This document shows positions 40,798 to 52,352 of a stretch of DNA of 64,000 nt, one piece after another (the first letter of the stretch is position 1; each line of letters opens with the position of its first letter). A model generated the notes under the pieces. It was given only the letters and a program-made list of their open reading frames with translations, did not search any database and was not told where the DNA came from. The DNA is taken from positions 1 through 64,000 of the forward strand of contig NZ_JAUYRI010000027.1 in the NCBI RefSeq assembly GCF_030696885.1, given 5' to 3'. Origin of the DNA: Thiobacillus sp. (GTDB lineage: Bacteria > Pseudomonadota > Gammaproteobacteria > Burkholderiales > Thiobacillaceae). The position numbers and the translations under genes were made by a program.

Positions 40798-41050
40798 CGG
40801 GATTCCATCCGCAGCTTGATCGTTGGCGCGGGTTCAGCCTGGCTCGGGTGTTGCCAGTGAACCGCATTGGGGAGACATGGTGCCATTATTTGGCGGACAG
40901 TTCATCCGGCAAAGGTCTGCCGGGCTTCAATCGAAAGCGGGCGTTGCGCAACAGGCCATTGCAATGACGCCCGGGCTGCGCGGAGGGCACAACGATGCCC
41001 TTGCCGCGTGCCGGCATGGTCAGCGCTCCTGAGTTGCGCGAGAATGTCGC

Positions 41051-41404
41051 ATGGACATCTTCCGCATCTTCCATCTGCAATGCGCGCGGCGCCTGCCGGC
41101 GCTGCCCGCTTCCCATCCCTGCGCGCGTCTGCATGGCCATTCGTTCGAGGTCGAATTGATCGTCAGCGGCGAGGTTGACCCGGCACTCGGCTGGGTGCTC
41201 GACTTCGCCGACATCGAGGCGGCATGGCAGCCCATCCACGCGGCGCTCGACCACCGCTATCTGAACGAGATCGCCGGGCTCGACAACCCCACCAGCGAAA
41301 ACCTAGCGGTGTGGCTGTGGGGCCAGCTCAAGCCGGTGCTGCCCGGCCTGTCGCAAATCAAGGTGATGGAAACCCACGACTCGGGCTGCATCTACCGCGG
41401 ATAA
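41051..41404 (+). CDS. queD: 6-carboxytetrahydropterin synthase-like protein
   Basis: [30 protein letters not shown]...VLDFADIEAAW...LDHRYLNEIAGLDNPTSENLAVWLW. Confidence 0.87.
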   Translation: MDIFRIFHLQCARRLPALPASHPCARLHGHSFEVELIVSGEVDPALGWVLDFADIEAAWQPIHAALDHRYLNEIAGLDNPTSENLAVWLWGQLKPVLPGLSQIKVMETHDSGCIYRG

Positions 41405-41425
41405 GCCGGCCCCCGGCGGGACGAA

Positions 41426-41473
41426 ACCAAGGCCTGCTTCTGACGGAAACATCCGTCGGAAGCAGGCCTTGGT
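41426..41473. terminator. Long near-perfect hairpin between convergent queD and small secreted ORF
   Basis: ACCAAGGCCTGCTTC t GACGGA aaca TCCGTC g GAAGCAGGCCTTGGT. Confidence 0.7.
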
Positions 41474-41510
41474 CAGGTCTGGAACAGCGGGGCGTACGCC
41501 CCGGCCGGTC

Positions 41511-41681
41511 TTAACGACCCATACTGGAAAAATCCAGCGTGCCGTGCGGCGTGTCAGCCACGTTTTCGTCGATCATCAGATAGATGTCTTCGTCGACGAT
41601 GTCTGCAGCGGGGTGGTGGGCAAAAGCCGAGAACGAGGCGAGCATGGCGGTGAGTACGGCAGCGGTCATAATGCTTTTCAT
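41511..41681 (-). CDS. Small secreted peptide, 56 aa
   Basis: MKSIMTAAVLTAMLASFSAFAHHPAADIVDEDIYLMIDENVADTPHGTLDFSSMGR; signal peptide with AFA cleavage motif; SD-like AAAGGA upstream. Confidence 0.7.
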   Translation of the reverse strand: MKSIMTAAVLTAMLASFSAFAHHPAADIVDEDIYLMIDENVADTPHGTLDFSSMGR

Positions 41682-41855
41682 GATCTGTTTCCTTTGAAAA
41701 TTAAAAAATGGAACGAGCCATTCAGCTGGCGGCGGTTGCGTCGTGCTGCGTTTGCGTCGGCTGATGAAAAGCATTATGAAAATCCGGCGTGCCTGTGGCA
41801 TGTCCGGGCGGTGTCAGTGTGTGGCAGTGTGTTTCACGGGCCATCAATCATGACC

Positions 41856-41894
41856 ACAAAACAAAGGGGCACACGAATCGTGTGCCCCTTTGTT
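41856..41894 (-). terminator. Intrinsic terminator downstream of the Ser/His/Gly-rich protein gene
   Basis: AACAAAGGGGCACACGA a TCGTGTGCCCCTTTGTT, 17-bp perfect arms, followed by a T-rich tract on the minus strand. Confidence 0.8.
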
Positions 41895-41911
41895 GCTACC
41901 AACTGCCGGAA

Positions 41912-42223
41912 TTAATGGCTGTGCTCGGTGCCACCCTCTTCGTGGTCGCCGCTGCCACCCTTGCCGTGGAAGATCTTGCTTTCCGCCGACTTGCTGCCGC
42001 CTTTCGCGCCGTCATGGTGCGAACTGCCGCCCTTGTGCGAACTGCTGCTGTGGCTGGAGCCACGGTCGCCGCCCATGTACTTCGGTCCCTTGCCCTTGCC
42101 ACCCGAGGTGTGTCCGGAGGAATGGCCGTCGTCGTGGCTGTCGGCCGCGTAGGCGGTTGCCGTGCCTGTTGCCAGGCCTGCAGCCAGCAACGCGATCGTT
42201 GCCCATTTGCTGTAAGCGTTCAT
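41912..42223 (-). CDS. Secreted Ser/His/Gly/Lys-rich low-complexity protein
   Basis: Signal peptide MNAYSKWATIALLAAGLATGTATAYA then DSHDDGHSSGHTSGGKGKGPKYMGGDRGSSHSSSSHKGG... Confidence 0.72.
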   Translation of the reverse strand: MNAYSKWATIALLAAGLATGTATAYAADSHDDGHSSGHTSGGKGKGPKYMGGDRGSSHSSSSHKGGSSHHDGAKGGSKSAESKIFHGKGGSGDHEEGGTEHSH

Positions 42224-42250
42224 GCTGATGACTCCTGTTGCGTGTGTTGC

Positions 42251-42272
42251 ACCGGGCGGCGAACCGCCCGGT
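42251..42272. terminator. Hairpin between two secreted-protein genes
   Basis: ACCGGGCGG cgaa CCGCCCGGT. Confidence 0.6.
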
Positions 42273-42279
42273 CTGGCGA

Positions 42280-43425
42280 TTAACGAACCGCGTTGTCGTG
42301 CACGAACTCGATCACCTGCAGGTAGTCGTTCGCCGCGGCCGCGAAGTCGTCAGCGCCGCCCACTGCGGTCGGGTCGACCCAGTTGGTACTGCCGAACACA
42401 GCCTCGTACAGATTCACCACGGTCGGCACATACACGCCGTCCTTCAGCACCAGCACGGAGGCGGTCGCATCCTTCCAGGCGGTGTAGCGGTCGTAGCTGA
42501 CGGTGGAGAAGTCATAGTAAGTCGTGCCGCTGTTGATCCCCAGGATGGAGTTCATGTACACCACGGTGTCGACGCTGACGGCGCCGGTTTTGTCCGCAGC
42601 AGCAGCCAGCAGTGCAGCCGGGTTGAAGTTGGCCGGCAGCGTAACGCCAGGCAGCGTGCCCGAAGTCATGTACTTGTCGTACAGCGCCAGATTCTCCAGC
42701 GGCGAGTCGATGGTCGCGCCGTCCACCACCAGGCGGCCAGTCGAATCGAGTGTCACCGTTCCCGAGGTCAGCTTCGACAGCGCTTCGGTCAGGGCGTGGT
42801 CGAGCACCTTGCTCGGCGAACGGCTCACGCTCAGGCGACCCAGATCGACCTCGGCACCGTAAACTTCATAGGTGGTGGTGCCGAGGGTGACGGTCGGCAG
42901 CAAATCGCCTTCCGCATTGCGGGGAATGATTACCGGGCTACCGTCCGGGTTGGTCAGCGGAACCAGCGTGGTGCTGCCGGTCGGATAGTAATAGGCGATC
43001 ACCTGAACCAAGCCATCGGCCAGAATCGGTGCGCCATTGACGTCGCGCAGCAACACGACCATATCGCCGTACAGGTCGCCCTTCTTGCTGCCGGCACCGG
43101 CCGGCTTGCCGCCGCCGCCCGACTTGCCGCCCTTGACGCCAGCCCAGACGGGGCGGTCGCTGTCTTCATCGACGCTCGAAACCGGTGCGCGGAAAATCCT
43201 GTCGCTGCCCTTGCCCTGGCCGCCCTTGTTGGCTGCCCCCTTTTGGCTACCGCCCTTGCTGGCAGCACCTTTCTTGGCACCGCCATCTTCTGCGGCCTGC
43301 GCGGACGAAATCACGCTCAGATTCATGCCCGTCACGGTATTGACAGCCATCGGAACGGCCAGCATGGCGAACATCGTGCCGCCAGCGAGAATGAGTTTTT
43401 TGATATTGAATGCGGGGTGTTTCAT
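42280..43425 (-). CDS. Exported protein of unknown function with Lys/Gly-rich linker
   Basis: Signal peptide; EDGGAKKGAASKGGSQKGAANKGGQGKGSDRIFRAPVSSVDEDSDRPVWAGVKGGKSGGGGK; long frame with coding character. Confidence 0.8.
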   Translation of the reverse strand: MKHPAFNIKKLILAGGTMFAMLAVPMAVNTVTGMNLSVISSAQAAEDGGAKKGAASKGGSQKGAANKGGQGKGSDRIFRAPVSSVDEDSDRPVWAGVKGGKSGGGGKPAGAGSKKGDLYGDMVVLLRDVNGAPILADGLVQVIAYYYPTGSTTLVPLTNPDGSPVIIPRNAEGDLLPTVTLGTTTYEVYGAEVDLGRLSVSRSPSKVLDHALTEALSKLTSGTVTLDSTGRLVVDGATIDSPLENLALYDKYMTSGTLPGVTLPANFNPAALLAAAADKTGAVSVDTVVYMNSILGINSGTTYYDFSTVSYDRYTAWKDATASVLVLKDGVYVPTVVNLYEAVFGSTNWVDPTAVGGADDFAAAANDYLQVIEFVHDNAVR

Positions 43426-43582
43426 GTGTTTCTCCCAGATGAATTGAGGACTACGGCCTTCTGCGACTGATCGTGTGACCGATCACAAAGTTATCTTCAC
43501 TACTATTTCAGACTAGCAAGTCCGGTATAAAAACACATTGATGAATCGCAATTTCACCGGGCTTTTTTGATGGAGCGACCAC

Positions 43583-46258
43583 TCAGAACCGGAAGCCCAG
43601 ACCCAGTCGAACCAGGGTTTCGCTGTTCTTGAAGTTCATGGCATCGGAGTTGCCATGCGTGGTCACGAAACTGACCGGGTCATCATAGCGGGTGTAGCTG
43701 TAATCCATGCGAATAAAGGCGTTGTCCGTTGCCGGGATCTCGGCGCCGAGGCCAAAGCGGGTGCCGTCGAGCTTGTCGCTCTGGTCGATCCAGTTGGCAG
43801 CGCTGCCGCCCTTGACATAGCTCGTGTTGAAACGGGTGCGCACGGCGCCGACGCGGCCGTACAGCAGGCTGCCATTGTTGAGTACGTAGCCGAGGCGTAG
43901 CCCGGCGCCGTAGCTGCCGCGTTTTTCGACCGAGAAGTCGCGGCCGCCATCGGCGTCGCCGCCGGTCTGGCGCTCGTGATTCCAGCCGAGGTTGGAGGCT
44001 TCGGCGTCGAGTTCCAGGCCGACGTAGACCTGATTGAAGGTGTGGCCGTAGCCGGCGAAGAAACCGCCGGTGAAGCCGGTGTTGGCGAAATCACCGGTGA
44101 AGTCGTAGGGGCCGCCACCGCTGTCGTTATGGGTGCCGGTCAGCTCGGTGCCCAGGGTGCCATGTCCGAGGCTGGCGCCTGCGTACAGGCCGCGCAGCTC
44201 GGTTGCGGAGCGCGTGGCCACTTCGGGACGTGCGCCGCCGAAACGCCAGCCAAGGCCGACGCTGAACACGCTGTCGCGGGTGTCGAAATCGTCCGTCGTG
44301 TAGAGGGGGCCGACGTCGGACTGGCGCGTCACGCCGTAGCTGCCGTAGTCGGTATAGCGATAGTCGGTGCGCACGAACAGGTTGCGCGAGGCGGGGATTT
44401 CCAGGCCGAGGCCGAAGCGGGTACCGGTCTCGGCCTGGTCGCGGTTGAAGGCGCCGGCGGGGAACTGGTTTTCCGTGTAGTAGGTGCGGAAGTCGGTGCG
44501 CACCGCGCCGATGCTGCCGACCAGCAGGCCGCCGTCGAACTGGTAGCCGACGCGCAGGCTGGCGCCGTAGCTGGTGTCCTTGTCGACGAACACGGTCGGT
44601 GCTTCCGGTTTGTCCTTGCGGTGATACCAGCCGGCGTCGCTGTCGCCGGCGTCGAGCTCGACGCCGAGATACCAGTTGCCGACCTCGGTGCCCCAGCCGC
44701 CGAACAGCGCGTAGCTGGCGCCGAAGCCGCCCATGTCGGCGGCGTCGAAGCCGCCGCCGTCGCGCGGGCCGATGGTCGCGGTGGTGAGGCCACCGTGGCC
44801 GAGCTGGGCGCCGAGGTAGAAGCCGGACAGCGTGCCCTGTGCGCGCGGCGAAGCGGGGGCGCCGGCTTCGCGTTCGGGGATGATCGAATAGTCGCGATTG
44901 CGCGCCGGCGTGTAGCCCACGCTGACGAACACCTGATTGCGGCTGTACTGGGCATCGCGGTTGTCGGAGTCGCGGTCGGTCACGCGCAGGTCGGCGCCGA
45001 TGTAAACCTGCGGCAGCACGTAATAGCGCAGACCGGCGCCGGCATCGATGATGCTGTCGCTGCGATCGAAATTCTGGAAATCGCTCTGCGTGTAGGCGGC
45101 GCGACCGCTAACCGACAGCTTGCTGGTCAGACGGCGCTCCACTTCGAAGCCGTAGGTGGTGTCGAGCGAGCCGGATGAATAGTCGACTCCGGTAAACACG
45201 GTGGTCTCTTCCAGCGAGCGGTCGATGAAACCGGTCACCGTCGTCACCGAAGTCGGTTTCCACTCGGCCAGCGCGCCGAAATACGGCTTCTTGAGATCGG
45301 CGAAGCCGCTGTAGTCGTAGTTCTGGCGCATCACGCCGGCGAACACTTCGCCGGTCAGGCGCTGCGGCTGCAGGGTGAACTTCATGCCGACCGCGGCGCG
45401 GGTGCCATCCGAATCGCGATTGTAGAGTTGGGTGGGGATCAGGTTGTCGTAATTGCGGGTGTCGGTGGCGAATTGGCCGAATACTTCAATGGCCGGCGAC
45501 AGCACATAGCCCAGGCGCGCTGCCAGCGAGTTCAGTTCATGGTCGCGGTAGTCATTGTCGACGGCGCCCAGGGTGGAAACACCGTCCTTGTAGTCGTAGC
45601 GGTCCCAGGTGCCGCCGGCGCGCAAACGGAAGGCGCCGAAAGCGTGCGCTACGCCCAGATGCGCCTCGTCGTGGTCGTAGCGGGTCGGTTCGGTTTGCGC
45701 GCCTGGATTCAGCGCGCCGGGGGTCGAGCGGTCTTCGTGATCGCGTGAATGGCGGGCACCGCCGAAGACGTTGGTGCGTGGGCTGATGTCGTAGCGGCCG
45801 TCGATATCCAGCCAGTAGTCGTTGACGTCTTCACTGTCGTTGTTGCGGTAGCGGTCGAAATCCGCGCCGAGACCGAAGTTGAGCGCGTGCTGGGCCCATT
45901 TCGACTTGAACTCGACCGAGGGCGACAGGGTATAGACCATGTCCTCGACGACATCCCTGCGCTCGGCGTAGATGTTGTCGTCATAGGTGGCGGCCAGCGA
46001 TATGTCCGGAAACACCAGGAACGAGCCCCAGGCGATGCCGGGGAATTCTTTCGGCTGGGCCGGGAACACCGAAGTCATCGGGCGGGTGGCCAGCACCGGG
46101 GGAAGCGTTGCGGTCGGGGTACTAGTGCCCTGCTGGGGGCCGCTGGGACTCTGGGGCTGCACAGGGGGTGGGGCGGGCGGGGCCGCCAGGATGTTCAGGG
46201 GCGTCAGGCCAAACGCAGCCGCCAAGCACGCGGCAAGAGGAGTCAAAGCGAACTTCAT
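43583..46258 (-). CDS. Outer-membrane protein with three apparent beta-barrel modules (891 aa)
   Basis: Signal peptide; Pro-rich linker; N-terminal outer-membrane barrel; two tandem homologous modules beginning LSGFYLGAQLGHG and LRGLYAGASLGHG and ending VGLGWRFGG and LGLGFRF. Confidence 0.82.
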   Translation of the reverse strand: MKFALTPLAACLAAAFGLTPLNILAAPPAPPPVQPQSPSGPQQGTSTPTATLPPVLATRPMTSVFPAQPKEFPGIAWGSFLVFPDISLAATYDDNIYAERRDVVEDMVYTLSPSVEFKSKWAQHALNFGLGADFDRYRNNDSEDVNDYWLDIDGRYDISPRTNVFGGARHSRDHEDRSTPGALNPGAQTEPTRYDHDEAHLGVAHAFGAFRLRAGGTWDRYDYKDGVSTLGAVDNDYRDHELNSLAARLGYVLSPAIEVFGQFATDTRNYDNLIPTQLYNRDSDGTRAAVGMKFTLQPQRLTGEVFAGVMRQNYDYSGFADLKKPYFGALAEWKPTSVTTVTGFIDRSLEETTVFTGVDYSSGSLDTTYGFEVERRLTSKLSVSGRAAYTQSDFQNFDRSDSIIDAGAGLRYYVLPQVYIGADLRVTDRDSDNRDAQYSRNQVFVSVGYTPARNRDYSIIPEREAGAPASPRAQGTLSGFYLGAQLGHGGLTTATIGPRDGGGFDAADMGGFGASYALFGGWGTEVGNWYLGVELDAGDSDAGWYHRKDKPEAPTVFVDKDTSYGASLRVGYQFDGGLLVGSIGAVRTDFRTYYTENQFPAGAFNRDQAETGTRFGLGLEIPASRNLFVRTDYRYTDYGSYGVTRQSDVGPLYTTDDFDTRDSVFSVGLGWRFGGARPEVATRSATELRGLYAGASLGHGTLGTELTGTHNDSGGGPYDFTGDFANTGFTGGFFAGYGHTFNQVYVGLELDAEASNLGWNHERQTGGDADGGRDFSVEKRGSYGAGLRLGYVLNNGSLLYGRVGAVRTRFNTSYVKGGSAANWIDQSDKLDGTRFGLGAEIPATDNAFIRMDYSYTRYDDPVSFVTTHGNSDAMNFKNSETLVRLGLGFRF

Positions 46259-46370
46259 GAAATTCTCCGCAGGCGGATGATCCGCCTTCTTATTTGAGTT
46301 CTGGTTCTAACAATTAAGAATCGATTGTGAGTCTGATGTTACGAGGTTTTAATGGGGAGCGGAGAAGCGA

Positions 46371-46384
46371 TTGATTTTTGTCAA
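46371..46384. promoter_or_regulatory. Candidate FNR-type box upstream of the triple-barrel gene
   Basis: TTGATttttGTCAA, one mismatch to TTGAT-N4-ATCAA. Confidence 0.5.
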
Positions 46385-46415
46385 TAAGACACTGTGACTA
46401 TTACGCAACGCAGTC

Positions 46416-47120
46416 TTAGGCGGACGCGAGACGCGTCAGGCCGGCGTGGTTGCAATCGACGTAGGTCCCTTTTTCCACATGAACCAGACCGCGCCGTCTG
46501 AACTCGGCCATGATGCGGCTGGCGGTTTCGGTGGTGATCCCGAGCAGCGCGCCCATGTCCTCGCGGCCGGGCAACACAAATTCCACGCCGGCGTTGGCAC
46601 AGCCGAGCGTGAGCAGCAGCCGGGCCATGCGTGATTCGGCCGGGCCGGTCGAGAGCGCGGTAATGAAATGATCGGCTTGATCGATCGAGCGCTGCCAGCG
46701 TTGCAGCAACGCCTGATGCACTGCGGGGCTGGTGCGGTCCAGATGCAGCACCACTTCACGCGGAATGCGGCAGACATCGGCCTCGTGCAGGGCGATCGCG
46801 GTGTGGTGGTAGCGGTCTCCCACCAGGGTTTCCAGGCCCGCAACGTCGCCCGGTCGCAGCAACCTCACGATGCGCTGGCCGCCATTGGGCAGCTCGATCT
46901 TGAGCTTGATGAGCCCGCTGCGCACGGTGTAGACGCTGGGCGCCTCGTTCCCCTGTTCGTACATCACCGCATGCTGTGGCACATGCAGGTTGTCGACGGG
47001 CTGCAGGATGGTATCCAGATCGTGCGGCGATAGTCCCGAGAACAGGACGAAATTGCGAACTTCGCACACTGCGCATTTGGCCCGCCCCTGCCACTGAACA
47101 TCGGTGCAATTCGGTTTCAT
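46416..47120 (-). CDS. Crp/Fnr-family regulator, FNR-like
   Basis: N-terminal cysteines NCTDVQWQGRAKCAVC plus DVCRIP; HTH ETASRIMAEFRRRGLV (ExxSR). Confidence 0.9.
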   Translation of the reverse strand: MKPNCTDVQWQGRAKCAVCEVRNFVLFSGLSPHDLDTILQPVDNLHVPQHAVMYEQGNEAPSVYTVRSGLIKLKIELPNGGQRIVRLLRPGDVAGLETLVGDRYHHTAIALHEADVCRIPREVVLHLDRTSPAVHQALLQRWQRSIDQADHFITALSTGPAESRMARLLLTLGCANAGVEFVLPGREDMGALLGITTETASRIMAEFRRRGLVHVEKGTYVDCNHAGLTRLASA

Positions 47121-47485
47121 GGGGCGGCCTCCTCCCGTGGAGAAATGCCTGGGTACTGCTGATGACCATGATGCATTGGATTCCGCTCATTATTTTCTGG
47201 AAGTGCGCCTGATGGGCGCGCCGGACACGGGGCCGGCCGGCTGGTATATACCAGACCCTATTCTGCACCTCATTGCGAATAATCAATTTTTTAGAAAAAT
47301 GGGCCGGCCGGGGCTGCATGGACCGGTTCACGCCCGACACACCGCGCAGTCACGCTGAAGTGATTGGCGTGATCGTGACCGGGTCCGCCGAACTTTCCCC
47401 TCCGTGAGCGTCAGCCGTGGGCCAGACGACAAGGGCGGCGCCCGTCTGCGGACGCCGCCCTTTGCACGCGTTGATACAGGCCGGG

Positions 47486-47929
47486 TTACTGGATTGCCAG
47501 TTTTTTGGCCGAGTTGGCCACCTTTTTGGGCAGGGTCAGTTCCAGCACCCCGTCACTGTATTTGGCCTGGGCGTTGGTTTCGTCGACGTCGTGCGCCAGA
47601 GTGAAGCTGCGCGCCACCTTGCCGCTGTAGCGCTCGGAACGCAGCACTTTCTCGCCTTCCTTCACGTCCTTTTCCATCTTCGTTTCGGCGCTGATCGAAA
47701 TCTGGTTGCCGTCGATGCTGACGTGGATGTCTTCTTTCTTCACGCCCGGAATGTCGGCGTGAACGGTATACGCGTTGTCGTTTTCCTTCAGGTCCAGCTT
47801 GATCTGCATCTGCGGCTGGCCCTCGAACAGCGCGGGGCGCACGAAAAAGCCCTTGAGCATGTCGTCGATATCGCTGAACGGATCGATGCGGGCAAGATTG
47901 AGGGGGTCGTAACGACTGAGGTTGGGCAT
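47486..47929 (-). CDS. Hsp20/alpha-crystallin family small heat shock protein
   Basis: DLKENDNAYTVHADIPGVKKEDIHVSIDGNQISISAE...GVLELTLPKK. Confidence 0.95.
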   Translation of the reverse strand: MPNLSRYDPLNLARIDPFSDIDDMLKGFFVRPALFEGQPQMQIKLDLKENDNAYTVHADIPGVKKEDIHVSIDGNQISISAETKMEKDVKEGEKVLRSERYSGKVARSFTLAHDVDETNAQAKYSDGVLELTLPKKVANSAKKLAIQ

Positions 47930-48119
47930 GATTTTCACTCCTGAAAAAGACCTTGGATAAGCATCCGAGCCGACGGGGCGGCTGTGTATTCAATCTAGAT
48001 GCGCATCAGGTGATTTCAAGACCCTTGCGACCCGAACGGCGGGCACCGGTCCGGATAGCGGAATCCGGCCGCTCTGCGGGAATGCGGCGGTACGGGCTAA
48101 AATGGAGACGCCCCTCATC

Positions 48120-49514
48120 ATGAATACCAGCCTCCCCCTCAGCAAAGTCATGGATCTGCTGCTCGACGCGGTCTGCGTCGTAGACGCACGGGGTGTCTTC
48201 GTCTTCATCAGCGCAGCGGGCGAACGCATCTTCGGTTACCGGCCGGAAGAAATGATCGGCCGGCCGGTGCTTGATTTTGTGCATCCCGACGACCGGGCAA
48301 TAACGCTGCAGACGATCGATGACATCCTGGTCGGCCAGCCCCAGCCCCATTTCGAGAACCGCTATGTGCGCAAGGACGGCCAGATCGTCCACATCATGTG
48401 GTCGGCGCGCTGGTCGGCGCCCGACCAGTTGCGAGTGGCGGTGGCGCGCGACATTACCGAGCGCAAGCACGCCGACGCCATGCAGGCCGCGCTCTATGCC
48501 ATTGCCGAAGCGGCACATGCCGCCGAAGACCTGGTCGCCCTGTTCGAGCGCATCCATCAGATCATTGGTGAGCTGCTGCCGGCGGTCAATTTCTTCGTCG
48601 CGCTGTACGACGCCGGCGAGGACGTGTTGACCTTTCCCTACTGCGCCGATGAATTCGGCCAGGCCCCCGCCCCGCAGAAGCTGGATTCGGCGGCGATGAG
48701 CGCCGAGGTCATCCGTACCGGCCAGGTGCTGTTGCTGTCGCCGCAGGCCAACGCCGGTCTGAGCGGCCAGGTCTGGCCCGATGTCAGCCGTAACGCGCTG
48801 CACTGGCTGGGTGTGCCACTGTCTGCGAAGGAGAACGTCATCGGTGCCCTGGTGGTGCAAAGTTATGACAGCGAGGTGCGCTACACCCAGAAGGACATCG
48901 AGCTGCTGCAGTTCGCCGCCAATCAGGTCGCCCCGGTGATCGAGCGCAAGCAGATGGAGCTCTGGCTGCAGCACATTGCCCGGCACGATCCGCTCACCGA
49001 TCTGCCCAACCGCGAGCTGTTCCACGACCGGTTGCAAACTGCGCTGCGCCTGTCCGAACGCAACCCGTCGCCGCTGTGCCTGCTGTACCTCGACCTGGAC
49101 CGGTTCAAGCAGGTCAACGACACGCTGGGGCATTCCATCGGCGACCTGCTGTTGCAGGAGGTCGCGCGCCGTCTGCGGCGCTGCGTGCGCGAATCGGATA
49201 CGGTGGGACGCATCGGCGGCGACGAATTCCTGGTGCTGCTCAACGGCATCGATCCGCCGGAACAGGCCCTGGCGGTCGCCGAAAAGATCCGCGCTGCGCT
49301 CGACCAGCCCTTTGAACTGGCCGGCCAGCAGGCGCGGGTTTCGCCGAGCATCGGGGTGGCCTTCTATCCCGGGCATGGCCGCGACTACAAGCAGCTGATT
49401 CGCTATGCCGACGAGGCGATGTACGACGCCAAAAAGAAGGGCGGCAACCGCGTCCAGGTCAGCCTCCGTCCCAACCTGCTCGATCCGCCGCGCGCGAACC
49501 AATCCACGCCCTGA
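48120..49514 (+). CDS. PAS-GAF-GGDEF diguanylate cyclase-type protein
   Basis: PAS (VCVVDARGVFVFISAAGERIFGYRPEEMIGRP), GAF-like middle, RHDPLTDLPNRELF...RIGGDEFLVLL. ORF extends to 48102. Confidence 0.92.
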   Translation: MNTSLPLSKVMDLLLDAVCVVDARGVFVFISAAGERIFGYRPEEMIGRPVLDFVHPDDRAITLQTIDDILVGQPQPHFENRYVRKDGQIVHIMWSARWSAPDQLRVAVARDITERKHADAMQAALYAIAEAAHAAEDLVALFERIHQIIGELLPAVNFFVALYDAGEDVLTFPYCADEFGQAPAPQKLDSAAMSAEVIRTGQVLLLSPQANAGLSGQVWPDVSRNALHWLGVPLSAKENVIGALVVQSYDSEVRYTQKDIELLQFAANQVAPVIERKQMELWLQHIARHDPLTDLPNRELFHDRLQTALRLSERNPSPLCLLYLDLDRFKQVNDTLGHSIGDLLLQEVARRLRRCVRESDTVGRIGGDEFLVLLNGIDPPEQALAVAEKIRAALDQPFELAGQQARVSPSIGVAFYPGHGRDYKQLIRYADEAMYDAKKKGGNRVQVSLRPNLLDPPRANQSTP

Positions 49515-49520
49515 CCCGGC

Positions 49521-49535
49521 GCACCAATTTGCGGC
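49521..49535 (+). promoter_or_regulatory. Candidate NtrC site upstream of nasA
   Basis: GCACCAATTTGCGGC, 13/15 to GCACYAWWWTGGTGC. Confidence 0.45.
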
Positions 49536-49631
49536 ACCCCGCTTGGCGCATGCACTGCCGCTGAGCATGGCGGCCGTCATTTGCCCGGCCGGATTGGGCC
49601 AAACTCTTGAATTCATTGCGCTGCAGGCTTC

Positions 49632-49647
49632 TGGCACAGACCCTGCT
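49632..49647 (+). promoter_or_regulatory. Candidate sigma-54 promoter of nasA
   Basis: TGGCACagacccTGCT; GG and GC at exact -24/-12 spacing. Confidence 0.5.
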
Positions 49648-49670
49648 GACAGACAGGGCGAGGAGCCATC

Positions 49671-52352
49671 ATGTCTGTCGTTTCATCTGTCTGCTGTTAT
49701 TGCGGCACCGGTTGCGGGGTGCTGATCGAGGCCGACGCCGGAAAAATCACCGGCGTGCGCGGCGATCCCGCGCACCCGGCCAACCGCGGCAAGCTGTGCA
49801 CCAAGGGTGCGGCGCTGGCGCTGTCGGCGCAGGCGTCCGGGCGTGCGCTCTATCCCGAGCTGCGCGCCGACCGCGCCTCGCCGCGGCGGCGGGTGAGCTG
49901 GGACGCCGCGCTCGACCACGCCGCCGAAAAATTCCGTACGGTCATCCTCGAGCACGGCCCTGATGCCGTCGCCTTCTATATTTCCGGCCAGCTCACCACC
50001 GAGGCGTATTACGTCTTCAACAAGCTCGCCAAGGGCCTGATCGGCACCAACAACGTCGACACCAATTCACGCCTGTGCATGTCGTCTGCGGTGGCCGGTT
50101 ACAAGGCCACCCTTGGCGCGGATTCGCCGCCGGGCTGTTACGACGATATCGATCATGCCGGCACGATCTTCATCGCCGGCTCCAACACGGCCTATGCGCA
50201 CCCGATCCTGTTCCGCCGCATCGAAGCGGCGAGGAAGGCCCATCCGGACCTCAAGCTGATCGTGGTCGACCCGCGCCGCACCGACACCGCCGACGAGGCA
50301 GACCTGCATCTGGCCATCCTGCCCGGCACTGACGTTGCGCTGTTCCACGCCATGCTCAACGTGATGCTGTGGGAGGAACTGATCGACCGCGCCGCCATCG
50401 CCGCTCACACCGAAGGCTGGGAGGCGCTGCGCGATCTGGTGCGCGACTACACCCCGGAGAAAGTTGCGCCGATCTGCGGCGTGGCGGCAGGCGATATCGT
50501 TCAGGCGGCGCGCTGGTTCGCCGCCGGGCCGACACTGTCGCTGTATTGCCAGGGGCTCAATCAATCCAGCTGCGGCGTCGATAAGAACGCCGCGCTGATC
50601 AACCTGCATCTGGCCAGTGGACAGATCGGCAAGCCCGGTGCCGCGCCGTTTTCGCTCACCGGCCAGCCCAATGCGATGGGCGGTCGCGAGGTCGGCGGGC
50701 TGGCCAACCTGCTGTCCGCCCACCGCGACATGAACAATCCCGAGCACCGCGCCGAAGTCGCGCGGCTGTGGGGGGTGGATGACGTGCCGGCGACGCCGGG
50801 CAAGACCGCGGTGGAAATGTTCGAGGCGGTGCGGCGTGGCGAGATCAAGGCGATCTGGATCGCCTGTACCAACCCCGCGCAGTCGATGCCCGACCAGAAT
50901 CTGGTGCAGCAAGCCCTGGAGGCCGCCGAATGCGTGGTGCTGCAGGAAGCGTTTGCCGACACCGAAACCGCGCCGTTTGCGGATCTGCTGCTGCCCGCGT
51001 CCAGCTGGGGCGAAACCGACGGCACCATGACCAATTCGGAGCGCTGCATCACGCGCGTTCACGCTGCCGTGCCACCCCCGGGCGAAGCACGCGCCGACTG
51101 GGCCATCGTCACCGACTTTGCGCAGCGTCTGATGCCCGACCTGGGTGCGCGCCTGTTCCCCTACACCAGCGCCGAAGCCGTGTTCAACGAGCACCGCGAA
51201 ACCACGCGCGGGCGCGATCTCGACATCACCGGTCTCTCCTATGCGCTGCTCGACCAGGCGCCGCAACAATGGCCGTTTCCCGAAGGCGCGGCCTCGGGCC
51301 AGGCGCGCCTGTATGCCGACGGCGTCTATCCGACCGCCAGCGGTCGCGCGCGCTTTCATGCCGCACCCTACCGACCGGTGGCGGAAGCGATCGACGCGCG
51401 TTTTCCGCTGCATCTCAACACCGGCCGCCTGCGCGACCAGTGGCATGCGATGAGCCGCACCGGCCGCGTGGCGCGGCTGTTCGCCCACGCCGACACGCCT
51501 GTGCTGAGCATGAACGCGCGCGACCTCGAGCTGCGGCGGTTGAACGCAGGCGACCTGGTCCGGGTGAAAAGTCGTCGCGGCGAAGTGGTCGTGGTGGCCG
51601 AGGCCAGCGACAGCGTGCGCCCCGGACAGTGTTTCCTGCCGATGCACTGGGGCGCGCGCTTCATGGGCGGGCGCGGCATCAATGCGCTGACCCTGCCGGC
51701 ATTCGACGCGGTGTCGAAGCAGCCCGAGCTCAAGCACGCTGCGGTGCAGGTGGCCAAGGCCGTGCTGCCCTGGCGCATGGCCGCGCTGGCGGTGGGCGAC
51801 GGGGCGAAAATGCTCGATGCCGTGCAGCCACTGCTGCGCGCCTGCGACTACGCCGCGGCGGGGCTGGCCGGGCGCGACCGCGATGTACTGACGCTGCGCC
51901 TCGCCCACACGCAGCCGCTGCCCGAATCGTTGTTGGCCGAACTCGACGCCGCGCTGGGGCTGGACGATCCGCTTGCTGTGATGCATTACGAAGACCGTCC
52001 ACGCGGCATATCCAAGCGCGTGCGGGTCGACGGCGGCACGGTGACCGCCGCGCGGCTGACCGGTGAGACCGCCGCCTTCGACTGGCTGCGCGACGTCATC
52101 GTCGATGGCATCGACGCCGCCTCGCTGCGCGCCTGGATGCTGGCACCGGTGGCGCGTCCGCCAGCAGGCGGGGCAGGGCGCGGACGCATTGTCTGTAATT
52201 GCTGGAACGTGGCCGAGCCCGACATCCTCGCTGCCATCACGGCCGGCGCCGACCTCGCCACGCTGCAGGCCACGCTCAAATGCGGCACTGAATGCGGTTC
52301 GTGCGTGCCGGAACTGAAACGCCTGATCGCAGGCAACCGGGCGGCGGCATGA
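49671..52352 (+). CDS. nasA: Assimilatory nitrate reductase catalytic subunit with C-terminal BFD-type [2Fe-2S] domain
   Basis: CCYCGTGCGV 4Fe-4S motif; molybdopterin motifs (NTNSRLCMSSAV, GSNTAYAHPI); C-terminal CNCWNVAEPDI...CGTECGSC. Confidence 0.93.
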   Translation: MSVVSSVCCYCGTGCGVLIEADAGKITGVRGDPAHPANRGKLCTKGAALALSAQASGRALYPELRADRASPRRRVSWDAALDHAAEKFRTVILEHGPDAVAFYISGQLTTEAYYVFNKLAKGLIGTNNVDTNSRLCMSSAVAGYKATLGADSPPGCYDDIDHAGTIFIAGSNTAYAHPILFRRIEAARKAHPDLKLIVVDPRRTDTADEADLHLAILPGTDVALFHAMLNVMLWEELIDRAAIAAHTEGWEALRDLVRDYTPEKVAPICGVAAGDIVQAARWFAAGPTLSLYCQGLNQSSCGVDKNAALINLHLASGQIGKPGAAPFSLTGQPNAMGGREVGGLANLLSAHRDMNNPEHRAEVARLWGVDDVPATPGKTAVEMFEAVRRGEIKAIWIACTNPAQSMPDQNLVQQALEAAECVVLQEAFADTETAPFADLLLPASSWGETDGTMTNSERCITRVHAAVPPPGEARADWAIVTDFAQRLMPDLGARLFPYTSAEAVFNEHRETTRGRDLDITGLSYALLDQAPQQWPFPEGAASGQARLYADGVYPTASGRARFHAAPYRPVAEAIDARFPLHLNTGRLRDQWHAMSRTGRVARLFAHADTPVLSMNARDLELRRLNAGDLVRVKSRRGEVVVVAEASDSVRPGQCFLPMHWGARFMGGRGINALTLPAFDAVSKQPELKHAAVQVAKAVLPWRMAALAVGDGAKMLDAVQPLLRACDYAAAGLAGRDRDVLTLRLAHTQPLPESLLAELDAALGLDDPLAVMHYEDRPRGISKRVRVDGGTVTAARLTGETAAFDWLRDVIVDGIDAASLRAWMLAPVARPPAGGAGRGRIVCNCWNVAEPDILAAITAGADLATLQATLKCGTECGSCVPELKRLIAGNRAAA

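Follow-up and report, generated by a model that had tools for sequence, protein, structure and literature searches.

A predicted triple-barrel outer-membrane protein of Thiobacillus and its conserved linkage to a secreted partner and an FNR-type regulator

How many barrels does a single outer-membrane chain hold, and what might the additional ones be for? The question is raised by a minus-strand open reading frame (43583-46258; 891 amino acids plus stop) in a 64,000-nucleotide stretch of Thiobacillus DNA, the whole of which is called the window below. At exactly this position an earlier note, made from the letters alone, had placed a signal peptide, a Pro-rich linker, a barrel of about 400 residues and two tandem modules of about 200 residues, and the domain searches bore this arrangement out. 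The putative signal peptide (residues about 1-25; 46184-46258, minus strand) has a charged start, a hydrophobic core and an ILA-AP end, with a helix predicted at residues 6-15; it is followed by a Pro-rich, probably periplasmic linker (residues 26-72; 46043-46183, minus strand) that is modelled without structure (pLDDT <50). A Pfam search assigned residues 71-448 to BBP2_2 (PF10082) with 313.1 bits against a cut-off of 23.7 (E 3e-93) and near-full coverage of the profile (positions 4-375 of 378), which places the protein in this family. The C-terminal modules belong to OMP_b-brl (PF13505), matched in three stretches with 118.9 bits against a cut-off of 28.7 (E 4e-34). When the window's own genome was searched with the first module (M1), the second (M2) was recovered at 42% identity (E 3e-29), a resemblance that, as judged from the sequences, lies far beyond chance, and no further copy of the small module was found there. 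The motifs listed in the earlier note recur in the sequence with minor misreadings: module 2 has VYVGLELDA rather than GVELDA, and module 1 has YGASLRVGY. The module limits, given in that note as about 470-687 and 688-891, come out at about 479-673 and 689-891. Purifying selection acts on each of the three parts, with dN/dS at 0.18-0.40 in comparison with relatives, and is weakest in module 1. No Rfam matches were found in 41000-50000.

AlphaFold2 modelling of the full-length protein from an alignment of 20 sequences gave a mean pLDDT of 77 and a pTM of only 0.67, with low-confidence stretches at residues 1-71 and 452-471. On this model, 18 strands were counted in the BBP2_2 porin domain (barrel 1; residues 80-449; 44912-46021, minus strand), eight in M1 (barrel 2; residues 479-673; 44240-44824, minus strand; end VFSVGLGWRF) and eight in M2 (barrel 3; counted over residues 689-890 of a domain spanning 689-891; 43586-44194, minus strand; end LVRLGLGFRF). 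The predicted barrels are joined by short linkers, the first at residues 450-478 (44825-44911, minus strand), where pLDDT is low, and the second, of 15 residues, at 674-688 (44195-44239, minus strand). Modelled alone, the tandem pair again gave 8 + 8 strands, at a pLDDT of 90.5 and a pTM of 0.88. NspA, a solved 8-strand barrel, was matched by Foldseek with a TM of 0.61 of NspA's own length, in alignments that extended over both small barrels; profiles of the full-length protein and of the tandem pair found no PDB chains related by sequence at E up to 1. A single large barrel, or a 16-strand barrel built from both small modules, is very improbable: Foldseek threads the strands along FadL, TonB-dependent receptors and other large barrels, but at an rmsd of about 14-31 Å and with TM values that do not rise above about 0.3, each module by itself makes up a full repeat of eight strands and matches PF13505, and a standalone single-module relative is known (L022). 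The single-barrel reading was rejected on the strand counts and the failed superpositions, and these, together with the model confidence, strongly suggest that each barrel closes separately. Three barrels in one chain, as the earlier note had proposed, are thus predicted with high confidence.

The triple-barrel gene or its fragments were detected in 18 of 56 Thiobacillus genomes, this one included, and the full-length copies are 69-78% identical. An assembly artefact is ruled out, since the frame is intact in many independent genomes, among them a one-contig Thiobacillus genome and T. thioparus DSM 505. The same three-module order recurs in other families of the order and of the class, including Pseudomonas oligotrophica. 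A search for homologs by module number, as the earlier note had advised, returned the porin alone, the three-barrel form and a standalone module. Strong PF10082 matches in the scan of the order were either about 400-550 aa long (porin alone) or 870-930 aa, and no BBP2_2 protein with a single small barrel was found in about 670 genomes searched for PF10082. The tandem pair occurred only behind BBP2_2 (6/6 full-length matches within long ORFs; 300 genomes of the order), and the standalone relative of 200 aa within the genus, L022, covers PF13505 positions 2-175 of 175. In the module tree, a 99/100 branch separates all M1 sequences from all M2 sequences, which points to one duplication older than the spread of the gene; by this tree, both 8-strand modules are products of one old tandem duplication. 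Two irregular loci were seen: L092 carries an in-frame stop within module 1 of the barrel gene, and in L067 the N-terminal end of the triple-barrel gene is present twice, the extra copy, which covers residues 1-41 and includes a stop, lying about 350 bases upstream of 10354.

The end strands of the barrels bear on how such a chain could be assembled. According to the earlier note, the BAM signal normally sits on the last strand only; this does not describe the present protein, in which the internal M1 also has a conserved terminal strand in every lineage examined, kept as GLGW[RKQ][FL] in nearly all rows of the alignment. The M2 aromatic end strand is mostly RLGLG[FYW]RF across the lineages examined. 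Barrel 1 ends in GYTP or similar, without a terminal Phe; its nearest unfused relatives likewise end without one, so loss of a barrel-1 beta-signal upon fusion is not claimed.

Synteny and co-occurrence link the triple-barrel gene to a secreted partner of 381 aa (42280-43425, minus strand) with a signal peptide and a Gly/Lys-rich stretch. Its segments include GDLYGDM-LRD, followed by a core with RLSVSRSP and IDSPLENLALY, and no Pfam or NCBIfam family was found for it. Each of the 18 Thiobacillus genomes that hold the barrel gene also holds the partner, which occurs in 19 of the 56 genomes overall; 37 genomes have neither barrel gene nor partner, and one has a partner fragment only. The conserved order in Thiobacillus is regulator, triple barrel, 381-aa secreted protein and a small secreted His/Gly/Ser-rich protein of 103 aa (41912-42223, minus strand), which is conserved downstream and also found in P. 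oligotrophica L068 and in L078; this protein possibly binds metal. Its KGPKYMGG motif resembles that of the partner family. In almost every other lineage a relative of the partner directly follows the porin gene, and this holds as well where BBP2_2 is not fused. Two tandem partner genes follow the triple barrel in L090-L092 (genomes G715, G622 and G512); the partner is on a different contig in G137 (L072/L085) and about 5 kb downstream in Gallionella. Nearly all lineages with a C-terminally extended porin have the GDLYGD...LRD segment, with spelling variants in L096 and L103, and the segment was found in none of the porin-only loci checked; the exception is L086, a triple barrel without it. 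The association is suggestive and partly follows phylogeny. Other neighbours in the window encode a PTPS (QueD-like) protein, a rhodanese, Hsp20 and a GGDEF protein (48102-49514).

Upstream of the barrel gene, in the same orientation, lies a gene for a Crp/FNR-family regulator (46416-47120, minus strand; PF00027 and PF13545, with an NCBIfam Fnr-like match below cut-off). Its cysteines C5, C16, C19 and C117 are conserved in 13/13 Thiobacillus copies examined and in L086; four such cysteines would presumably suit an iron-sulfur FNR sensor, although their spacing is unlike that of E. coli FNR. Between the regulator and the triple-barrel gene is an FNR-like palindrome, TTGACAAAAATCAA (46371-46384, minus strand), the one stretch of the window that fits the FNR consensus TTGATNNNNATCAA with <=1 mismatch. 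A similar palindrome occupies the same place in most other Thiobacillus; several relatives (L064, L067) have a weak box or none at all upstream, and in most of the loci from outside Thiobacillus no box was detected. Expression of the barrel gene probably responds to oxygen or redox state by way of the adjacent FNR-type regulator. When up to 2 mismatches are allowed, the window (1-64000) contains 30 FNR-like sites; shuffles give an expectation of about 10.

Domain order, predicted strand counts, conservation and linkage to partner, regulator and box come directly from these computations. As to function, we propose that the triple-barrel protein forms one half of a conserved cassette, the half in the outer membrane, and that the downstream secreted Gly-rich protein or proteins make up the other. 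The 18-strand barrel would form a pore through which the partner, or material that the partner organises, leaves the cell, and the pore-less 8-strand barrels would act as covalently tethered surface domains holding the partner at the cell surface, possibly through the conserved extracellular residues W544, K548 and K550 in M1 and W759, R763 and R773 in M2. The FNR-type regulator, acting via the FNR-like box, would make this a redox-controlled outer-membrane unit. On average, conservation is lower in the extracellular parts than in those within the membrane, so the docking idea rests on few residues, and, as both proteins have signal peptides, they may merely share the envelope. Taken as a whole, with anatomy, export or display, docking and redox control together, we regard the proposal as falling just short of probable; the export or display mechanism itself is offered more tentatively.

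Two other readings of the function have to be weighed. The protein might be a polysaccharide or small-molecule porin like BBP2_2/EpsL, with small barrels that anchor or stabilise it and neighbours that are exopolysaccharide matrix proteins, which we consider unlikely but worth keeping in view. Barrel 1 shares PF10082 with EpsL and gives a sub-threshold match to it (TIGR03014), and c-di-GMP genes occur near BBP2_2 loci (GGDEF/EAL in L080, GGDEF in L094 and the GGDEF gene of the window); however, the 50.8 bits of that match miss the equivalog cut-off of 275, the immediate neighbourhood is without polysaccharide synthesis genes, and the constant neighbour is a secreted protein. Membership of EpsL itself was rejected on this score and on the lack of an exosortase/exopolysaccharide locus among the neighbours; the present protein also differs from EpsL by its added C-terminal barrels. 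Somewhat less likely again is a tethered oligomer, in which fusion would fix the stoichiometry of the porin and two small barrels for assembly or stability and the partner would be unrelated. The linkers are short, each barrel has an even number of strands and so starts and ends on the periplasmic side, and the small barrels are always two, never one, all of which would suit such an arrangement. Against it, genomes with an unfused BBP2_2 porin and the partner have no separate small-barrel gene nearby by the module profiles, a different strand-rich domain takes the same place in Gallionella, and co-occurrence with the partner is strict.

Export or display of a secreted partner by a multi-barrel chain can be set against several known systems. 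Solan and colleagues reportedly found in 2021 that 8-strand combinations prevail among multi-barrel proteins and that these originate by lineage-specific fusion. The present protein, with serial Pfam domains and an AF2 count of 18 + 8 + 8, has by prediction more than one complete barrel per chain, which is the defining property of that class. The earlier note was right to call multi-barrel chains unusual, but they already form a class described by Solan et al. (PNAS 2021, doi 10.1073/pnas.2104059118; cited in PMC11494523 and PMC9603273). The 18 + 8 + 8 combination with a fixed secreted partner, three barrels of two kinds, looks new. GfcD/YjbH likewise has two predicted barrels in one outer-membrane chain, is heat-modifiable and acts with operon partners (PMC11494523, PMC8592465). 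It differs in having 12 + 13 strands, a periplasmic middle domain and a group 4 capsule operon (PMC11494523, PMC8592465); membership was rejected, as no such Pfam match was obtained and the linkers here, of 29 and 15 residues, are domain-free. Modules 2 and 3 match the profiles and the fold of OMP_b-brl and OmpA/NspA-type 8-strand barrels (PF13505, PF01389), but stand in tandem, fused behind a porin. Membership of OmpA was also rejected: PF01389 is weakly matched (33.4 against 21), but there is no peptidoglycan-binding C-terminal domain and the chain ends with a barrel. The amyloid exporter FapF, a separate 12-strand trimer, resembles the present protein in that it too is a barrel of the outer membrane whose gene accompanies those of low-complexity secreted proteins, a likeness for which no sequence relationship is shown. 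As far as we checked, the partner family, its strict linkage to the barrel gene and the apparent exchange of barrels are undescribed.

A purpose is known for few of the multi-barrel outer-membrane proteins. The triple-barrel system has a clear genetic partner, and Thiobacillus thioparus DSM 505 and Pseudomonas oligotrophica are isolates that carry it. Loci with only the porin serve as natural controls, and in one case the C-terminal part appears to have been exchanged in nature. Two questions thereby become testable: how BAM folds three barrels per chain when the middle barrel retains a beta-signal of its own, and what a porin gains from small barrels tethered to it.

The apparent exchange was found in Gallionella, where BBP2_2 is fused to about 740 residues of a different strand-rich protein (L074:9974-13552). 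In the BBP2_2 tree L074 groups with a triple-barrel protein (support 98/95), which suggests that the C-terminal part was exchanged. This domain matches the GSU2204 family weakly and below the cut-off (E 5e-5), no PDB relatives of it were found by sequence at E up to 1, and the gene directly upstream (L074:8952-9959) encodes a protein with ten CXXCH motifs, a decaheme cytochrome; on these sequence features, L074 possibly joins an electron-conduit barrel to BBP2_2. A fusion of this type was absent from 60 relatives. A further fusion, L093:6573-9176, has a TolC-type (OEP) domain N-terminal to BBP2_2 and adjoins a separate OEP gene, HlyD, an RTX/Calx-beta protein and a partner homologue. Each of the two fusions is represented by one draft genome.

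A broader reading, which we hold to be doubtful, is that BBP2_2 and its Gly-rich secreted protein constitute an undescribed export or display system whose porin has repeatedly gained extra barrels or channels in the same chain. The gained parts would be two 8-strand barrels, possibly an MtrB-like domain in Gallionella and a TolC-type domain in another lineage, and barrel swapping would, if this is true, be a route to new surface functions for one secretion unit. Porin-only loci have 2-3 further Gly-rich secreted proteins behind the porin, none with a Pfam match. Operons in which a BBP2_2 porin is followed by two to four Gly-rich secreted proteins were seen at L080:3998-6772, L082:1250-3494 and L087:8019-11246. 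Among those of their Gly-rich proteins that were scanned, none has a Pfam family; a helical core at the C-terminus, with LAGTYLGL, PVT and AE-QR motifs, seems to be common to the proteins of these operons.
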